Origin: Martelella mediterranea DSM 17316
GTDB lineage: Bacteria > Pseudomonadota > Alphaproteobacteria > Rhizobiales > Rhizobiaceae
NCBI RefSeq assembly: GCF_002043005.1
Contig: NZ_CP020330.1
Location: 4,234,001 to 4,298,000 of the forward strand
Reading direction: 5' to 3'
DNA: 64,000 nt
Below the pieces are notes generated by a model. The model had not been told where the DNA came from, searched no databases, and saw only the letters and a program-made list of their open reading frames with translations. Positions 2,103-44,902 of the stretch are shown piece by piece (positions within the stretch are counted from its first letter, which is position 1; every line of letters begins with the position of its first letter). The position numbers and the translations under genes are program-made.

Positions 2103-2468
2103 ATGAGACACACCCCCACAGCACTCGCCCTTGTGGCTTCGCTTGCCATCGTCGGCGGCGCGGCCCTGATGACCACGCCGGCCTCCGCCGCGAGCTTCGA
2201 TTGCAGCGCCTCCGGCCTGACACCGAATGAAAAGACCATCTGCTCCAACCTCACGCTCAACGACGACGACGTGAAGATGGCGACGATGTACACCATGCTC
2301 AAAGGTCTGTTCGCCATGGGCATGTCCGGCAACATGGCCGACGACCAGAAGGCCTGGCTGACGGAGCGCGAAGCCTGCGGCACGAATGTCGCCTGTATCG
2401 AAAAGGCCTACGACACCCGCATCGACCAGTTGCAGAAGATTTATGACGGGATCGACAAGCCGATCTGA
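2103..2468 (+). CDS. Small secreted LprI/DUF1311-like protein
   Basis: A 121-residue protein with a Sec signal peptide (about residues 1–30, cleavage after ASA) and four cysteines in the mature part, likely two disulfides. The pattern of cysteine pairs and the C-terminal YDTRIDQLQKIYD helix resembles the LprI/DUF1311 family, some of which inhibit lysozyme. A strong AAGGAGG ribosome site lies about 8 bases before the ATG, which decides this start over the longer reading frame upstream. A bidirectional-looking hairpin follows the stop. Family membership is inferred; lysozyme inhibition is not shown by the sequence. Confidence 0.75.
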   Translation: MRHTPTALALVASLAIVGGAALMTTPASAASFDCSASGLTPNEKTICSNLTLNDDDVKMATMYTMLKGLFAMGMSGNMADDQKAWLTEREACGTNVACIEKAYDTRIDQLQKIYDGIDKPI

Positions 2469-2476
2469 GGATAGAC

Positions 2477-2510
2477 GCGAGGGAAGCGCGCGCATCCGCG
2501 TTTCCCTCGC
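2477..2510. terminator. Bidirectional hairpin between convergent genes
   Basis: A 14-base arm (GCGAGGGAA then G/A then CGCG) pairs with its complement with one G·U wobble and a 6-base loop. It sits between the stop of the LprI-like gene and the stop of the convergent beta-lactamase gene. There is no long U-tract on either side, so termination efficiency is uncertain. Confidence 0.65.
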
Positions 2511-2518
2511 CCCAAGGA

Positions 2519-3337
2519 TCAGCGTGGCGCGTTCAGCGCCCGCCTGGACAAGGCCGGCCATTGCTCCAAAAGAGCCTCCCGGGTCCGGATCCCCGGCGAC
2601 TGCTTGCCGCGCTGCTCCGTCTGCGTGAGCGTCACGAACACCAGCGTGTCCTCGCCGCGTTCGGCCCAGCCGACATACCATCCCCAGCCGTGGTCGTAAT
2701 CAAAACTGCGATCGGCGCGCCGGGGATAGGCCGCGCCCGTCTTGCCGCGCAAAACCCAACCGTCGACGATGTTCTGTTCGAGCAGACTGCGCGTCTTTGC
2801 CATGGCCTCATCACTTGCCGGCAAGGTTCCGAGCACCAGCCCGCGCAGAAAGGCGGCCTGCTGATACGGCGAAATCTTCAGCGATGACGCGATCCAGGCA
2901 CGGTCCAGCCCGTTGTCGTAACCCGGATCGCCGGAAAAATCGGCATTGCCATAGCCGAACGCCTCGCCATAGCGAGTAAGCCTCGCAGCTCCGAGAATAT
3001 GGGTCAGGCGCTGCGAATACCAGACGACGGAATAGCGGATCCAGCGCTCGGGATCGGTATCCTGTTTCCAAGCTGCCCCACCCCAGTCGGGATCGCCTTC
3101 GCGATAGGCCATGACCGGGTGATGAGCGTCCTGCAGCACGCCGGCATCAAAACCCATCACCGCCAGCGCCACCTTGAAGGTCGAGGCCGGCGTGACCTCC
3201 GATCGGCAATCCCCCTCCTCTACCAGAACCGCCCCGGATGTTGCGTTCACCATGAGCGTACAGACCGGCGCCGCCTCGGCGGAACGCGCCAGCGCCGGCA
3301 ACAGGAAAAGCACCAGACCAACAAACAATCGCAGCAT
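2519..3337 (-). CDS. Class D (OXA-type) beta-lactamase
   Basis: A 272-residue serine beta-lactamase that hydrolyses penicillin-type drugs in the periplasm. The class D signature is complete: S-T-F-K at 52–55 with the acylated serine and carboxylatable lysine, S-V-V at 103–105, Y-G-N at 129–131 and K-T-G at 199–201, plus WGWYVGW near 220. An N-terminal signal peptide covers about 1–23. The ATG at 3337 is preferred over the GTG 15 bases upstream because GGAGG lies 5 bases before it. The gene stands alone, downstream of ilvD on the same strand, with no integron, IS or regulator beside it, so it looks like an intrinsic chromosomal enzyme. Confidence 0.93.
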   Translation of the reverse strand: MLRLFVGLVLFLLPALARSAEAAPVCTLMVNATSGAVLVEEGDCRSEVTPASTFKVALAVMGFDAGVLQDAHHPVMAYREGDPDWGGAAWKQDTDPERWIRYSVVWYSQRLTHILGAARLTRYGEAFGYGNADFSGDPGYDNGLDRAWIASSLKISPYQQAAFLRGLVLGTLPASDEAMAKTRSLLEQNIVDGWVLRGKTGAAYPRRADRSFDYDHGWGWYVGWAERGEDTLVFVTLTQTEQRGKQSPGIRTREALLEQWPALSRRALNAPR

Positions 3338-3359
3338 TTTCGCCTCCACCACGCAAAGT

Positions 3360-3419
3360 TTCGGGTCGACCTTTGCAGGACGACCCGAACAGTTTCACAA
3401 GCCCCGCATGTGATGCGGG
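3360..3419 (-). terminator. Two hairpins downstream of ilvD
   Basis: Reading on the minus strand after the ilvD stop, a 7-bp hairpin (CCCGCAT arms, 3403–3419) is followed by a perfect 9-bp hairpin (TTCGGGTCG arms, 3360–3389). They separate ilvD from the beta-lactamase gene and could end ilvD transcription or form the beta-lactamase leader. Neither has a clear U-tract. Confidence 0.5.
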
Positions 3420-3429
3420 AAAGCTGGCA

Positions 3430-5265
3430 CTATTCCGGCAATATCCGCACCGCGCCCTTGTCGGCGCTGGCGGCGAAGGCTGCGTAGGCCTTCAGCGCGG
3501 TCGTCACCTTGCGGCGGCGCGGGCCTTCGGGTTTCCAGCCCTTTTCGTCCTGTGCCGAGCGCCGGGCTTCGAGCTCGGAGGGCGAGATGCGCAGGGAGAT
3601 GGTACGGCCGGGGATGTCGATGTCGATCATGTCGCCATTGCGAACAAGACCGATCGCGCCGCCCTGGGCCGCTTCCGGCGAGACGTGACCGATCGAAAGA
3701 CCGGAGGTGCCGCCCGAGAACCGGCCATCGGTGATCAGCGCGCAATCCTTGCCGAGGCCCTTCGACTTCAGATAGCTGGTCGGATACAGCATTTCCTGCA
3801 TGCCCGGCCCGCCCTTCGGTCCTTCATAGCGGATGACGACGACGTCGCCGGCCTTGACCTCGTTGGAGAGAATGCCCTTCACCGCCGCGTCCTGGCTTTC
3901 GTAGACGACCGCCGGGCCGGAGAATTTCAGGATGCTCTCGTCAACGCCGGCCGTCTTCACGATGCAGCCGTTGAGCGCGATATTGCCCTTCAGCACGGCA
4001 AGCCCGCCATCCTTGGAGAACGGATGCTCGGCATTGCGGATCGCACCGGAAACGCGGTCGAGGTCGAGTTCGGCCCATCGGCGCTCCTGCGAGAACGCCT
4101 GCTGCGAGGGCACGCCGCCCGGTGCCGCCATGAAGAATTTCCGCACGCTTTCGGAATTGGTGCGCACGATATCCCACTGGTCGATGGCGTCGCCCAGCGT
4201 CGCCGAATGAACGGTCGGGCTGTCGCGTTTGATCAGCCCTGCCCGGTCCAGCTCGCCAAGGATCGCCATGATGCCGCCGGCGCGGTGGACATCTTCCATA
4301 TGAACATCATTCTTGGCCGGAGCGACCTTGCAAAGGCACGGCACATGCCGCGACAGCCGGTCGATATCGTCCATGGTGAAATCAAGCTCGGCCTCATAGG
4401 CGGCCGCGAGAATATGCAGCACCGTATTGGTCGAGCCGCCCATCGCGATATCGAGCGTCATCGCGTTTTCGAACGCGGCCTTGCTGGCGATATTGCGCGG
4501 CAGCGCGCTTTCATCGTCCTGCTCATAGTAGCGGCGCGCCAGATCGACGATCTGGTGGCCGGCCTCGACGAACAGGCGGCGGCGGTCGGCATGGGTGGCA
4601 AGCGTCGAGCCATTGCCCGGCAGCGACAGGCCGAGCGCTTCCGTCAGACAGTTCATCGAATTGGCGGTAAACATGCCCGAGCACGAACCGCAGGTCGGGC
4701 AGGCCGAACGCTCGATCGCCTGGACATCGTCATCGGAATATTTGTCGTCGGCGGCGGCGACCATGGCGTCGACCAGATCGAGCGCCTGTTCCTTGCCGTT
4801 CAACACAACCTTGCCGGCTTCCATCGGGCCGCCGGAGACAAAGATCGTCGGGATGTTGAGGCGCAGCGAGGCCATCAGCATGCCGGGGGTGATCTTGTCG
4901 CAATTGGAGATGCAGACCATGGCATCGGCGCAATGGGCGTTGACCATATATTCGACGCTGTCGGCGATGACCTCGCGCGAGGGCAGCGAATAGAGCATGC
5001 CGTCATGGCCCATGGCGATGCCGTCATCGACGGCGATCGTGTTGAATTCCTTGGCGACGCCGCCCGCGCTTTCGATCTCGCGGGCCACGAGCTGGCCGAG
5101 GTCCTTCAGGTGGACGTGACCGGGCACAAACTGGGTGAAAGAATTGACGACGGCGATGATCGGCTTGCCGAAATCACCATCCTTCATGCCGGTTGCGCGC
5201 CAGAGACCGCGCGCGCCGGCCATGTTTCGACCATGGGTCGTCGTTCTTGAACGATAGGCAGGCAT
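3430..5265 (-). CDS. ilvD: Dihydroxy-acid dehydratase
   Basis: A 611-residue enzyme of branched-chain amino acid and pantothenate synthesis that dehydrates 2,3-dihydroxy acids to 2-keto acids. Iron–sulfur ligands are seen as C122 ([10 protein letters not shown]) and the C189–C195 region ([11 protein letters not shown]); the N-terminal [10 protein letters not shown] is also typical. The length matches the long E. coli-like form. The chosen ATG at 5265 (MPAYRSRTT) has AGGAAG upstream; the reading frame is open 33 bases further but without a better start. Its upstream neighbour on the other strand is the PepSY gene, 312 bases away. Confidence 0.96.
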
Positions 5266-32654: not shown

Positions 32655-32859
32655 AGCGCTCCATCCTCGCCAAACTCGATTACACAACCTATGGTATAGT
32701 AAATATCGAACGGCAACCAGATGGAAAATCTATGGTCGCTTTCAAGGCCCGGATCGCGATATCATGCGACGAAGCAGGCTCCGCGCCACACCGTAAAACG
32801 CCCCTTATTCCCGGCAAATACTGATGCGGATCGGGAGCGACATCACAGAAAGGCCCGAC

Positions 32860-33168
32860 ATGATTGCCATACCCGGCTACACCAGCGACGGCGAGCGCAT
32901 GGTCTTCATCATCACCGGCAAGGTCTACCACGAGTGGAATGGCGATACCGAGGTCCATGTCCTGATCGCCGCGCCGGACGAGGACACCGCCGTGCGCAAC
33001 ACGCTGAACGCGCTGGCAAACGAGGGCTACTCGGAGGCCGACCTTGACCAGATCGGCATGATTTCCGAAATCCCCGACGAAGAGCCCCACGCGTCAGCCT
33101 ATCAGACGGCGCTCGAAGGCGAAGTGGCGATCGTGAAGCTCGGCGGCAGCGCAGACGGCGGCTTCTGA
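32860..33168 (+). CDS. Small protein of unknown function
   Basis: A 102-residue acidic, soluble-looking protein I do not recognise. Predicted strands (RMVFIITGKVYHEWNG, EVHVLIAAPDED) and one helix (TAVRNTLNALANEGYSEADL) suggest a compact alpha/beta domain; the C-terminus is glycine-rich. The ATG at 32860 has GAAAGG six bases upstream. It lies between two minus-strand genes, so it is a single-gene unit. Confidence 0.65.
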   Translation: MIAIPGYTSDGERMVFIITGKVYHEWNGDTEVHVLIAAPDEDTAVRNTLNALANEGYSEADLDQIGMISEIPDEEPHASAYQTALEGEVAIVKLGGSADGGF

Positions 33169-33227: not shown

Positions 33228-34820
33228 TCAGCCGGCGCTCTCGCTCGGCGATGGCGTCCATGCATGATGGTTGGCCGGAAAGGCGCGTGAGAACTGTCGG
33301 GCGGGCATCGGCCGGCCGATCAGGAACCCTTGAATGCAGATGTCGGGATAGATGGCAACGAGATGGTCGGCCTGGCCTTTGGTTTCCACGCCCTCGCAGA
33401 TCAGGGTCACCTCGAGCACCGCGGCAAGCTCACAGACCTTGCTGACGATCACCGCGCCGATCGCCTGCTGATCGAGCGCCTGGGTGAACATCCGGTCGAT
33501 CTTGATGCCCGCGATCGGCATGCGGGCGATATAGGCAAGGTTCGAATAGCCGGTGCCGAAATCGTCGATGAGGATGCGATAGCCGCGTCTGCTGAAAGCC
33601 GCCATCGCCTGGGTCAGGCTGTCCTGGCTCGCCGTCGAACGCTCCGTCAGTTCCAGCGCGACCTGACCGGCGGAAAGCCCGTGGGACCGGGTTTCGGTCT
33701 CGAGAAAATCCAGAAACTCCAGGCTCAGTATGTCCTCGGAGGCAACATTGATGCTGACATAGAAATCCGGATCGGCGGCAAAATGCGCCGCCATGTCGGT
33801 GAATGCCCGCCTGACGACGCTGCGGGTGATCTGCCCGATGAACCCGCAGGTCTCCGCCGCGGGAATGAAATGATCGGGCGGGATCAACGTCCCGTCGAAA
33901 TCGACCAGCCGCGCAAGGGCCTCCGCCCCGCATATTCTATTGTCGGAAAGCCTGACGATCGGCTGATAATGCACCGTCAGCCGATCGTCGTTCAGCGCCC
34001 GCTCCAGCTTCTGGCGCCATGACCGGCCTTCACGATAGAGATGCGCGTGCCAGAGCCCGAGACACGCGCCCGCCGAAACACCGCCGGCCAGGACAAGCAG
34101 GAAATCAAGCGGCGCCGTCTTCAAAAGGGCGGGCGCGTCATAGGTGGCGACGACGCAGACATCGATCTTGTCATTGCAGCGCGAATAGACCCTTCGCTGC
34201 GCAATGCGATACCAATCACTATTACTTCCGAGCAAAGGCGCGAGCCCTTCGGTATCGCCGAAGGATTGATAGCTGTAGCTGGCATCGCTGGTCAGCACCA
34301 GGGCGGCCAGGCGCTCGGCGGGGTCTTCGTAGCGCGCGAAGGCGGTGGGCGCCGTCATCACGACGCTGTTGCCGAAGGAAGACATATCGACCGCAAGGCC
34401 AGCCGGCGCGATGCCCCTGGCGCCCTTCCAGAGCGTGGCCGCGTTGACGCCCACGACCTGCGAACGCGGCGGCATCTTCACCGGCGTTGCCAGTTCGCCC
34501 CATATGCCGGTACAGACCAGGTACCCGTCCCTCAAACGACCGACGTCGGTAAGATACGGAGCGGCGAAAACGACGCCGCGCATCGCCTCCAGGTCCTCTG
34601 CGGAACAGGGCGCATTGTCAGATCGGTCGAGGGTGCGCAATACCGTCAGACTGGTTTCGGCGACGGAGACCGCGTTTTGAAAGACATCGGAGCCATAATA
34701 GTCGACATATTCGTCGGCGCTATGGTTGCGGATGAACTCGGCGATCACCAGCGAACATATCCCGCCCAGAAAGACCCAGACAAGACAGATGATCCAGATA
34801 CTCCGTCTACCCGCCTCCAT
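33228..34820 (-). CDS. c-di-GMP phosphodiesterase with CSS sensor domain
   Basis: 530 residues. A membrane helix (8–30), a periplasmic CSS-motif domain (about 31–236, cysteines C72 and C103), a second helix (238–258) and a cytoplasmic EAL domain (270–525). Catalytic and metal residues appear intact: E300 of GAEALAR, N358, E390 of ELTER, D419–D420 of DDFGTGYSN, K440, E476 of CEGVET and Q497. In E. coli PdeC-type proteins the cysteine pair forms a redox-controlled disulfide; the spacing here is alike. No GGDEF domain. Likely lowers c-di-GMP in response to periplasmic redox state. Confidence 0.9.
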   Translation of the reverse strand: MEAGRRSIWIICLVWVFLGGICSLVIAEFIRNHSADEYVDYYGSDVFQNAVSVAETSLTVLRTLDRSDNAPCSAEDLEAMRGVVFAAPYLTDVGRLRDGYLVCTGIWGELATPVKMPPRSQVVGVNAATLWKGARGIAPAGLAVDMSSFGNSVVMTAPTAFARYEDPAERLAALVLTSDASYSYQSFGDTEGLAPLLGSNSDWYRIAQRRVYSRCNDKIDVCVVATYDAPALLKTAPLDFLLVLAGGVSAGACLGLWHAHLYREGRSWRQKLERALNDDRLTVHYQPIVRLSDNRICGAEALARLVDFDGTLIPPDHFIPAAETCGFIGQITRSVVRRAFTDMAAHFAADPDFYVSINVASEDILSLEFLDFLETETRSHGLSAGQVALELTERSTASQDSLTQAMAAFSRRGYRILIDDFGTGYSNLAYIARMPIAGIKIDRMFTQALDQQAIGAVIVSKVCELAAVLEVTLICEGVETKGQADHLVAIYPDICIQGFLIGRPMPARQFSRAFPANHHAWTPSPSESAG

Positions 34821-35048
34821 AGCGCTTCCTTTCCGCCGCCGCGCTAATCAGGGGACCTTTTGGCTCTCCCCTTCTGAAGCGCAAATCGCCCCGCAATCGC
34901 TCCCAGATCGACCGCCGACGACAAGACCGCGTAACCAGCAAATGTTATCGCTAGCATTTTAGCAGTAAATGTCAAAGACCGCCGAAAGTCGGTATCCTCT
35001 TACACAAAAGCGTGAAAACGCTTGGCCGGAAGCCGAAGCTGGTGCCTG

Positions 35049-35215
35049 TTCGCCCGGCTGCGGCTCGCTTTGCGGGTTTATCGCGGAGGTCATTGGCGGT
35101 CGCCTCGTCGGCGCGGGAGGTCTTTCGGCGGGCGTCGACGATGAGGTCGTCGCGGGACGCGCCGCGACGACCATCCATGTCATGAACATGGCGACCCGTA
35201 CCGGCTTTGTTATCA
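35049..35215 (-). pseudogene. Decayed copy of the 3' end of rpoC
   Basis: On the same strand as rpoC and about 1 kb downstream of it. 35049–35087 matches 36185–36223 (the last codons before the rpoC stop) with 3 mismatches in 39; 35099–35156 matches the rpoC stretch from 36234 with 5 mismatches in 58. The stretch between differs by one base in length, giving a frameshift: one frame reads RDDLIVDARRKTSRADEAT (rpo[20 protein letters not shown]) and another SAINPQSEPQPGE (rpo[14 protein letters not shown]). The stop codon is also lost. Similarity fades past about 35215. It covers only about the last 54 codons and has no start, so it is a remnant, not a gene. Confidence 0.88.
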
Positions 35216-35417
35216 GAACGCATGAAGCGCTCCATTCTTCCATGCGAAGCGAAGGCATGAAATCACCTGATCGCCGCTCGCTCCGCAACCACTTCAGTCT
35301 GTGCGTCCGCCGTTGTTTTGGCTAACGATATTTCAGTAGGACCCAAAAATGGTCCAGCCGCACCGTAAACGAGGGAAGCGGAGGAATAGCGGTAACAGGC
35401 CGGAGCCAGAATGTTTC

Positions 35418-36035
35418 CTACCGGCTGAAGGCCGAACGCATCAGACCGAAACCGGCCATGGCGAACAGACCGGCCACCGCGCCTTCGATGGCGCGCCTGA
35501 ACCGCTGATATCCCGCCATCGCGCCCGGCAGCGAAAACACCAGGGCATAAAGCATGTAATTGACGAGCCCGAGGATCATGCAAAATCCCGTGGCGATAAT
35601 CATCGGCTGCCCGCCGGACTCCGCGCCAATGGAAAGCGCCGCCATCCACGCCAGCACTGCCTTGGGATTCGAGAGGTTGAGGACAAGTCCGCGGCGAAAC
35701 CAACGCCCGTCCACGGCCGTTTTCCCGCCAGTTTCAACGCCTGCTTTTGCCGCCGCGCGCGCCGACTGAAAGGCAAGGTAAAGCAGATAGGCCCCGCCGA
35801 GCACTTTAAGCACACTCAGGAAATATACCGATCCCTGAAGCATCGCACCCATTCCCGTCGCAGCGATAACGCCCCAGAATGAAAGCCCCGCAGCAAGACC
35901 GGCGCCGAAAACAAGCCCCGCGGCTCTGCCAAACCGCATCGCAATCGTCGCGACGGCGATATTGGCCGGACCGGGCGAGACGGCAACGACAAAGAATGCC
36001 AGCGCGATGGCGAGAATACCGGACAGATGGGCCAT
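35418..36035 (-). CDS. LysE-family amino acid exporter
   Basis: 205 residues with about six membrane helices and the LysE/RhtB signature VAVSPGPANIAVATIAM near the start and LNLSNPKAVLAWMA in the middle. Substrate unknown. The ATG at 36035 (MAHLSG) is chosen by family start. It lies between rpoC (after the rpoC terminator) and the rpoC remnant, so it may have arrived with the event that left that remnant. Confidence 0.9.
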   Translation of the reverse strand: MAHLSGILAIALAFFVVAVSPGPANIAVATIAMRFGRAAGLVFGAGLAAGLSFWGVIAATGMGAMLQGSVYFLSVLKVLGGAYLLYLAFQSARAAAKAGVETGGKTAVDGRWFRRGLVLNLSNPKAVLAWMAALSIGAESGGQPMIIATGFCMILGLVNYMLYALVFSLPGAMAGYQRFRRAIEGAVAGLFAMAGFGLMRSAFSR

Positions 36036-36121
36036 GGACGTGGTCCCCGCTACGTTTGAAAAACAGGTTACGCGCGTTGGCAACGCGTCGCAAGCTTGTC
36101 TGGCGACAGAGCGCTTCACAA

Positions 36122-36153
36122 CAGAAAAGCCGCCGGTGCGAGACCGGCGGCTT
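36122..36153 (-). terminator. Intrinsic terminator of rpoC
   Basis: AAGCCGCCGGT pairs perfectly with ACCGGCGGCTT around a 5-base loop, 29 bases after the rpoC stop, and on the minus strand is followed by TTTTCTGTTGTG. Ends the rplKAJL–rpoBC block. Confidence 0.85.
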
Positions 36154-36181
36154 CCAGATCAGACAGCTTCAACGCAGAGGC

Positions 36182-40396
<4,215 letters not shown>

Positions 40397-40546
40397 GCCT
40401 GTCTCCTTGACTGGGCGGCATCGCCCTTGCTGGCAGTCGATCCGGTCAAAACCCCGATACCGGACGACCTGCCTTTAAAACGGTTGTGGCCGCGAAATGC
40501 GGCGAAACTGACACTTGAGGCTTACTTTCTAAGCATCGAGCGCCGG

Positions 40547-40578
40547 CGACGCGCCCGCCCTTCACAGGGGGCGCGTCG
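40547..40578 (-). promoter_or_regulatory. Hairpin between rpoB and rpoC
   Basis: CGACGCGCCC pairs perfectly with GGGCGCGTCG around a 12-base loop, 10 bases after the rpoB stop. No U-tract follows. It may be a processing or stability hairpin in the rpoBC transcript. Confidence 0.5.
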
Positions 40579-40588
40579 GCTCTCAACT

Positions 40589-44728
<4,140 letters not shown>

Positions 44729-44821
44729 TCAGGTAGCTCCTTCAATCTGCATCCGGGCCTGCAACAGACGGTCACCGATGGCCAATTGGCTCCGTCGTCA
44801 TTTAAGGGTCTTCTTGAGAAC

Positions 44822-44902
44822 CCATTACCCAAAGGCCCGAAATGGGACTTTGGGTAATGGTTTCGGGTCAGTTGTCATTGCGCGGGCGGTGACCGCCCGC
44901 GC
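44822..44902 (-). promoter_or_regulatory. Paired hairpins between rplL and rpoB
   Basis: Two strong stems follow the rplL stop on the minus strand: a 10-bp GC stem (44880–44889 with 44893–44902) and a perfect 13-bp stem (44822–44834 with 44848–44860). Neither has a U-tract. In E. coli this spacer carries an attenuator and an RNase III site that set the L12 to RNA polymerase ratio; the same role here is inference from position. Confidence 0.65.

Follow-up and report, generated by a model that had tools for sequence, protein, structure and literature searches.

Organization of the rpoC region

The window analysed here, i.e., the whole stretch of 64,000 nucleotides taken from contig NZ_CP020330.1 of Martelella mediterranea DSM 17316, contains an intact rpoC gene followed, in the transcription sense, by a hairpin, lysE, approximately 150 nt of further sequence, a remnant of the rpoC 3' end, a flank, a CSS-motif/EAL domain gene and a convergent gene of 114 aa. 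The comparisons below are based on a set of 13 Martelella genomes, designated G000 (the window's own genome) and G001 to G012. The region between rpoC and the 114-aa gene is referred to as the slot, and the DNA inserted in it as cargo. The features of the locus, in window positions, are the following:

36182..40396, minus strand: intact rpoC, 1404 aa, with RpoC Pfam domains; protein 98–99% identical in G001, G006 and G004
36178..36181, minus strand: four bases past the rpoC stop codon, GCCT in the coding sense, common to G000 and G001
36129..36151, minus strand: terminator-like hairpin 3' of rpoC, read by eye
35418..36119, minus strand: lysE, LysE-type exporter gene, open frame of 233 aa (PF01810, E 1.4e-27)
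35206..35358, minus strand: stretch separating cargo from remnant, found in none of the 13 genomes other than G000 and G001
35044..35205, minus strand: rpoC 3'-end remnant, consisting of a strong block and a weaker gapped part, with a frameshift and a lost stop codon
35049..35156, minus strand: strong block of the remnant, 88% identical to the rpoC end at 36185–36291
34821..35043, minus strand: flank past the remnant, 80–81% identical to the sequence after the rpoC stop codon of G002 and G011
33228..34820, minus strand: CSS-motif/EAL domain gene (hereafter EAL), 530 aa (PF12792, PF00563)
32824..33168, plus strand: conserved hypothetical gene, 114 aa, the right-hand border of the slot

The start of lysE is probably at 36035, because its five closest homologs have 204–205 aa; the LysE homologs P0001–P0003 are 86–97% identical. 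Hairpins comparable to that at 36129–36151 were also recognized by eye 3' of rpoC in other genomes. Beyond the GCCT that follows the rpoC stop codon the DNA of G000 and that of G001 are unrelated. The stretch 35206..35358 has no significant similarity to rpoC, and within the flank 34821..35043 the terminator situated past the intact rpoC of G002 and G011 can be recognized by eye in decayed form.

Two further features of the region deserve mention. An open frame of 2992 aa without a stop codon (35879–44857, plus strand) runs antisense across rpoC and rpoB and is probably just a consequence of base composition and codon usage. A 17-nt near-palindrome (GGACC...GGTCC, 35339–35355) is situated where the DNA common to G000 and G001 beside the remnant begins. 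As a candidate insertion-sequence end it was rejected: it occurs once in the window, and the 11 of 91 loci that have it all represent this place in G000 or G001.

The remnant of the rpoC 3' end

The first-pass annotation had placed a frameshifted remnant of the rpoC 3' end at 35049–35215. The remnant is real, and its span, approximately 35044–35205, is slightly shorter. In a BLASTN self-comparison of the whole window (E up to 1; 29 off-diagonal matches, the best 15 of which were inspected), 35049–35156 aligned with 36185–36291 over 108 columns at 88% identity with one 1-nt gap (E 4e-31). With 133 bits this was the strongest of the 29 matches, the runner-up having 49 bits, so that the self-alignment suggested as a check on the remnant gave similarity far above background. 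When the rpoC end was aligned locally with the 300 nt surrounding the remnant, the score was 153, the maximum among 1000 dinucleotide-preserving shuffles being 34.

The details described earlier hold as well. There are three mismatches in 39 positions at 35049–35087, and five in the second block, which is taken here as 59 nt (35098–35156). Relative to rpoC, the G000 remnant has a one-base insertion, the length difference previously noted, and it reads CAG where the coding strand of rpoC reads TAA, i.e., the stop codon is indeed lost. The remnant, approximately 160 nt in length, lies on the same strand as rpoC and about 1.1 kb from its intact end, and the PF01810 gene and the hairpin are located in between, as had been stated.

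How far the remnant extends beyond the strong block is less sharply defined. A translated match (35095–35208, E 1e-4) extends it to 35208. At the DNA level the weaker part scored 23.5, above 1000 of 1000 shuffles, but 106 ordinary neighboring windows compared with a longer rpoC piece scored up to 26.5, and the exact extent of this part is therefore uncertain. Past approximately 35205 none of six pieces exceeded the shuffles (p 0.13–0.87). A gapped alignment can be drawn that extends the remnant upstream as far as the stretch common to G000 and G001 reaches, but given the scores of these pieces it was rejected. The similarity to rpoC fades near 35205, where decay is too strong for the joint to be seen.

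The significant DNA similarity together with the broken frame and the lost stop codon identify 35044–35205 as an rpoC pseudogene fragment. A functional gene was considered and dismissed: the frame is broken in G000, and the stop codon is gone in both G000 and G001. An assembly accident is unlikely, since the same remnant is present in G001, a separate genome.

Distribution of the remnant in the genus

The last 600 nt of rpoC were compared by BLASTN with stretches reaching 5–10 kb past rpoC in all 13 genomes, and a second strong copy of the rpoC end was found in two of them, G000 (108 nt, 88.0%) and G001 (106 nt, 89.6% to the G000 rpoC end). Whole-genome searches also gave a second RpoC end in these two genomes, and the sequence beside the remnant was likewise present in G000 and G001 only (whole-genome search, 2/13). 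The G001 remnant matches RpoC at the protein level over 51 residues (E 3e-13). One whole-genome protein search recovered it and missed the frameshifted remnant of G000; similar frameshifted remnants elsewhere could therefore escape such a search. The lost stop codon is common to both remnants.

In the sister genome G001 the flank past the remnant is 92% identical to that of G000, the EAL side included, and the cargo is unrelated to lysE apart from the last approximately 150 nt before the remnant. Beyond these 150 nt the G001 cargo had no match in the other genomes, and the 150-nt piece itself had none in the other 11. Two of the three cargo frames of at least 70 aa were run against Pfam, with no match at E up to 1. 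The G001 cargo (L032:4650-5930) contains a 95-aa frame without a Pfam match and, as read by eye, a pair of similar but diverged segments, as though excised from a repeat protein.

Four of the 13 genomes (G002, G009, G010 and G011) display a different arrangement, in which the intact rpoC end is joined directly to the sequence situated past the remnant in the window. The G000 stretch from the remnant to EAL (local positions 2431–4322) aligned with the rpoC end and EAL of G002 as one BLASTN piece at 87.7% identity, and local 2431–4327 aligned with those of G011 in one alignment at 86.5%; the corresponding values were 79.3% for G009 and 76.0% for G010. It is thus the remnant, and not the intact rpoC, that is colinear with the rpoC–EAL flank of the four relatives. 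The comparison with relatives that had been proposed earlier bears out the expectation, as these four have no lysE at rpoC and their rpoC end joins the remnant's flank. The rpoC–EAL arrangement would accordingly be the original state.

Altogether, an EAL ortholog adjoins rpoC in six of the 13 genomes (G000, G001, G002, G009, G010 and G011), and a lysE ortholog in three (G000, G006 and G008). Both arrangements would be accounted for if the double arrangement were ancestral to the genus, and the relatives had deleted either lysE (G002, G009, G010, G011) or EAL (G006, G008), the deletion in the G002 group resulting from recombination of one rpoC end with the other. We consider this hardly credible: several independent losses would be needed, no trace of a second end was found in 11 of the 13 genomes, and the remnants share sites with G000 and G001 against G006 (four to five of five). 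G009 carries another EAL gene of this family that does not adjoin rpoC (G009:C3:138919-140484, L063), the protein of which is 71% identical. A scan of the genome contigs with the EAL protein gave at least 80 loci, with identity of no more than 39% among the matches listed; it may omit the window's close relatives and was not used.

The slot downstream of rpoC

The 114-aa gene forms the right-hand border of the slot in eight of the 13 Martelella genomes and in the eight genomes of other genera of the family that were examined. In the eight Martelella genomes where rpoC and the 114-aa gene are neighbors, 706–3473 nt lie between them. Apart from the genomes described above, the slot contains the following:

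G006: lysE
G004: choloylglycine-hydrolase-family (CBAH) gene
G005: MarR-type gene (Pfam); G007 has a very similar frame, assigned by its resemblance to that of G005
G003: leucine-rich-repeat (LRR) gene
G012: two small frames, one of which was run and had no Pfam match

The cargo after rpoC in the 13 genomes thus differs, and includes lysE, EAL, CBAH, MarR and LRR genes as well as other frames. In the eight genomes from other genera of the family, examined out of 24, the distance from rpoC to the 114-aa gene is 118–154 nt in four and 831–1984 nt in the other four. By contrast, 240–279 nt separate rpoB from rpoC in 20 of 21 genomes (measured from 20 aa ahead of the G000 rpoB end), the remaining one being incomplete.

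In five congeners (G002 and G008–G011; L185–L189) the 114-aa gene and its neighbors are found far from rpoC or on another contig, and a breakpoint of chromosome rearrangement seems to lie in the same slot. Among these congeners, the frames of G002, G008, G009 and G010 were listed, and in all four transporter-type frames are located past the cargo; the assignment is based on Pfam for the G008 frame beside lysE (ABC-2 permease) and on resemblance for the other three. Both lysE and EAL occur with two right-hand contexts, the 114-aa gene or transporter genes. The similarity between the EAL genes of G000 and G002 ends within the last codons of the gene, and the frames of G000 and G001 terminate with codons other than those of the remaining four genomes. 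Taken together, the two contexts and the differing last codons leave rpoC as the only border common to all arrangements, and this is as expected if rpoC is the sole anchor of the exchange.

In a survey of 394 genomes of the family, the C-terminal 117 aa of RpoC were matched in 363, and more than one match was found only in G000, G061 and G275 (G001 was outside the draw); as a protein search, the survey can miss older or shorter remnants. G061 and G275 were rejected as further carriers of a remnant (L221–L224). The two matches of G061 come from different contigs and lie in long frames of 983 and 1415 aa, and the second match of G275 is a piece on the opposite strand, right at the border of the contig that carries the first; both are probably effects of assembly or contamination.

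These data bear on classic site-specific integration. In this case an element carrying its own rpoC 3' end would have entered the site, and its integrase and the bulk of its sequence would have disappeared afterwards. The layout of a restored gene, an insert and a truncated old end of about 160 nt resembles that of e14 at icd (PMC6379469), and the different cargo in the sister genome would fit reuse of the site. However, no integrase was found among the insert frames tested (LysE of G000 and two of the three G001 frames of at least 70 aa), although a decayed recombinase gene could conceivably lie in the insert. Since more than one match was confined to three genomes among the 363, there is also no sign of a much-used attachment site. 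We regard site-specific integration as very improbable.

Lineage and age of the remnant

The remnants were compared with the rpoC ends at columns that distinguish lineages. In 13 columns that separate G000/G001 from G002/G011, six of which constitute one 6-nt indel, the G000 remnant (R000) is of its own lineage's type at ten and of the G002 type at two, and the G001 remnant (R001) at 11 and one, respectively. In the five columns separating G000/G001 from G006, R000 is own-type at four and R001 at all five. One column sets G000 and G001 alone against all eight others compared, and here R001 is own-type and R000 is not. No column distinguishes G000, G001 and G006 from the four EAL genomes as a set.

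A tree built on 169 columns joins the two remnants as sisters (100/99) and leaves ten of its 12 inner branches unresolved. According to the AU test, grouping the remnants with G002/G011 is rejected (p 0.025) and grouping them with G000/G001 costs no likelihood (p 0.49); neither the placement with G006 (p 0.42) nor that with the four EAL genomes as a set (p 0.16) is rejected. On this modest evidence, an origin from the rpoC end of its own lineage is most likely for the remnant, although gene conversion from the intact rpoC could have given it the own-type sites. The intact rpoC end, in turn, is not visibly foreign, contrary to what the earlier suggestion of foreign DNA restoring the gene would lead one to expect. 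Over its last 900 columns the G000 rpoC is close to that of G001 except at columns 3000–3300, and there is no clear donor tract at the end. Identity between the two genes is 91.3% in alignment columns 3000–3300 and 95–100% in the other 14 pieces, a dip that hints at an imported tract inside rpoC.

The EAL gene has a different history. In the EAL tree G000 and G001 group with G002 and G011 (support 1.0), in conflict with the rpoC and gyrB trees, and EAL has therefore probably been exchanged between lineages, before or together with the displacement event. As EAL was possibly imported, the original state is less clean than a simple displacement story would have it. The same grouping invites another explanation, namely that an rpoC end and EAL arrived together from a G002/G011-like donor and were placed beyond lysE, the remnant being the donor's rpoC end. 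The flank past the remnant is G002/G011-like, and G006, which belongs to the same rpoC group and has rpoC, lysE and the hypothetical gene without EAL, could represent the recipient state. Against this, the own type prevails in the remnant's coding part (10–11 of the 13 separating columns), and its union with the G002/G011 clade is rejected (p 0.025), although that with all four EAL genomes is not (p 0.16). The donor would have had to combine an own-type rpoC end with a G002-type EAL, unless gene conversion took place later, and we therefore find the arrival of a donor's end unlikely.

That both copies are of the same lineage type, on the same strand and only about 1.1 kb apart would also suit a tandem duplication within the genome, the other half of the earlier proposal, in which the rpoC end and the DNA downstream were duplicated, one copy decayed and the intervening DNA was replaced. 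Such a duplication predicts similar DNA after both copies, and no link between post-rpoC and post-remnant sequence was present among the best 15 of the 29 self-matches. Moreover, the cargo differs even between the sisters, and a full replacement would have to be added. Tandem duplication is thus disfavored, and we see little chance of its being correct.

As to age, the strong block of the remnant differs from its own rpoC at 12 of 107 positions in R000 and at 11 of 107 in R001; the two remnants differ from each other at 15 of 107, and the rpoC genes of G000 and G001 at five of 107. Together with the common loss of the stop codon, these mismatches indicate that the event predates the split of G000 and G001. 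In the 169-column tree the stem of the remnants is long (0.2), and a plain clock would read an older event from it; the length may be due to the gapped upstream part.

Proposed displacement of the rpoC end by insertion

We propose, with a probability of roughly 0.6, that the remnant is the decayed 3' end of the lineage's own rpoC, displaced by an insertion in the common ancestor of the two sisters. This reading had been put forward on the basis of the window, and the direct rpoC–EAL junction in four of the 13 genomes, all without lysE at rpoC, supports it. In the ancestor, EAL would have followed rpoC directly, as in the four congeners. The incoming DNA may have consisted of an rpoC 3' end and other sequence, and homologous pairing within rpoC would have restored an intact gene, whereas a non-homologous junction at the other end would have left the old rpoC end, its terminator and EAL approximately 1 kb downstream. 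Being functionless, the old end presumably lost its stop codon while the sisters were still one lineage, and it gained the frameshift in G000. The cargo between the intact end and the remnant would afterwards have been exchanged or differently trimmed, so that G000 has lysE there and the DNA of G001 is unrelated to it. We infer the order of events, the type of recombination and the existence of a donor; no donor of the incoming DNA was found. Single-crossover integration of a circle with a short rpoC end would yield the same order.

As the cargo differs between the sisters, either further exchange or two complementary deletions must have followed the formation of the remnant. Exchange anchored in rpoC is favored, because a separate terminator-like hairpin stands at the start of each cargo, next to rpoC (by eye). 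This leads to a broader and more speculative idea, namely that the rpoC 3' end is a standing anchor for integrase-free cassette exchange in the genus and perhaps in the family, which we put forward tentatively. Units made up of an rpoC end, a terminator and one gene might then move by means of rpoC homology alone and come to lie before unrelated right-hand neighbors, a notion that we hold with some doubt. Now and then, it is possible, if somewhat less than even odds, that a former rpoC end would be left behind as a dated scar. The remnant-bearing genomes are two, G000 and G001, and represent one event.

Accessory hotspots without mobile elements are mostly inferred statistically, and the scar described here displays one event, its order and its rough age. 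If rpoC is a one-sided anchor, any strongly conserved gene end could ferry neighboring genes between species, and such scars could be searched for systematically. A short second match to the end of an essential gene is possibly a displaced end rather than a sequencing error. In itself the remnant is a modest trace of gene swapping beside a core gene in bacteria.

Comparison with known systems

The closest parallel in layout is prophage e14 at icd of Escherichia coli K-12, where, according to PMC6379469, 163 bp were separated as the icd' pseudogene. In both cases an insertion at the 3' end of a housekeeping gene supplies a new end, and an old end of similar length lies beyond. Unlike e14, a prophage with site-specific integration, the insert described here is one exporter gene or another small cargo, no recombinase was found in it, and the old rpoC end has decayed.

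In mechanism, the displacement of effector genes and orphan immunity arrays in the type VI secretion system (T6SS) of Vibrio cholerae is closer. For this system homology-facilitated illegitimate recombination has been proposed, and according to the same source the mechanism has also been hypothesized for Rhs loci (PMC5361080). As there, a one-sided homology anchor upstream, a non-homologous far junction and old 3' parts downstream are proposed. In the T6SS case the displaced effector gene is itself exchanged together with its immunity gene, whereas the anchor in Martelella is an essential gene, the product of which is hardly changed, and the cargo is unrelated to it.

Hotspots without mobile elements, with recombination in the flanking core genes, have been described in a survey of 80 species (PMC5635113). 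The slot after rpoC resembles such core-flanked hotspots in the turnover of cargo between conserved genes. It differs from them in that hotspots are statistical and defined within species, while here one slot is followed across the genomes of 13 species and the scar of a single event is visible. A narrow full-text search of the literature for 'downstream of rpoC' together with 'genomic island' found no paper. The gene involved is mildly unusual, as had been remarked at the outset, and the mechanism is ordinary: it is known in kind from e14 at icd and from T6SS effector displacement, and the use of rpoC as the anchor is the fresh part.
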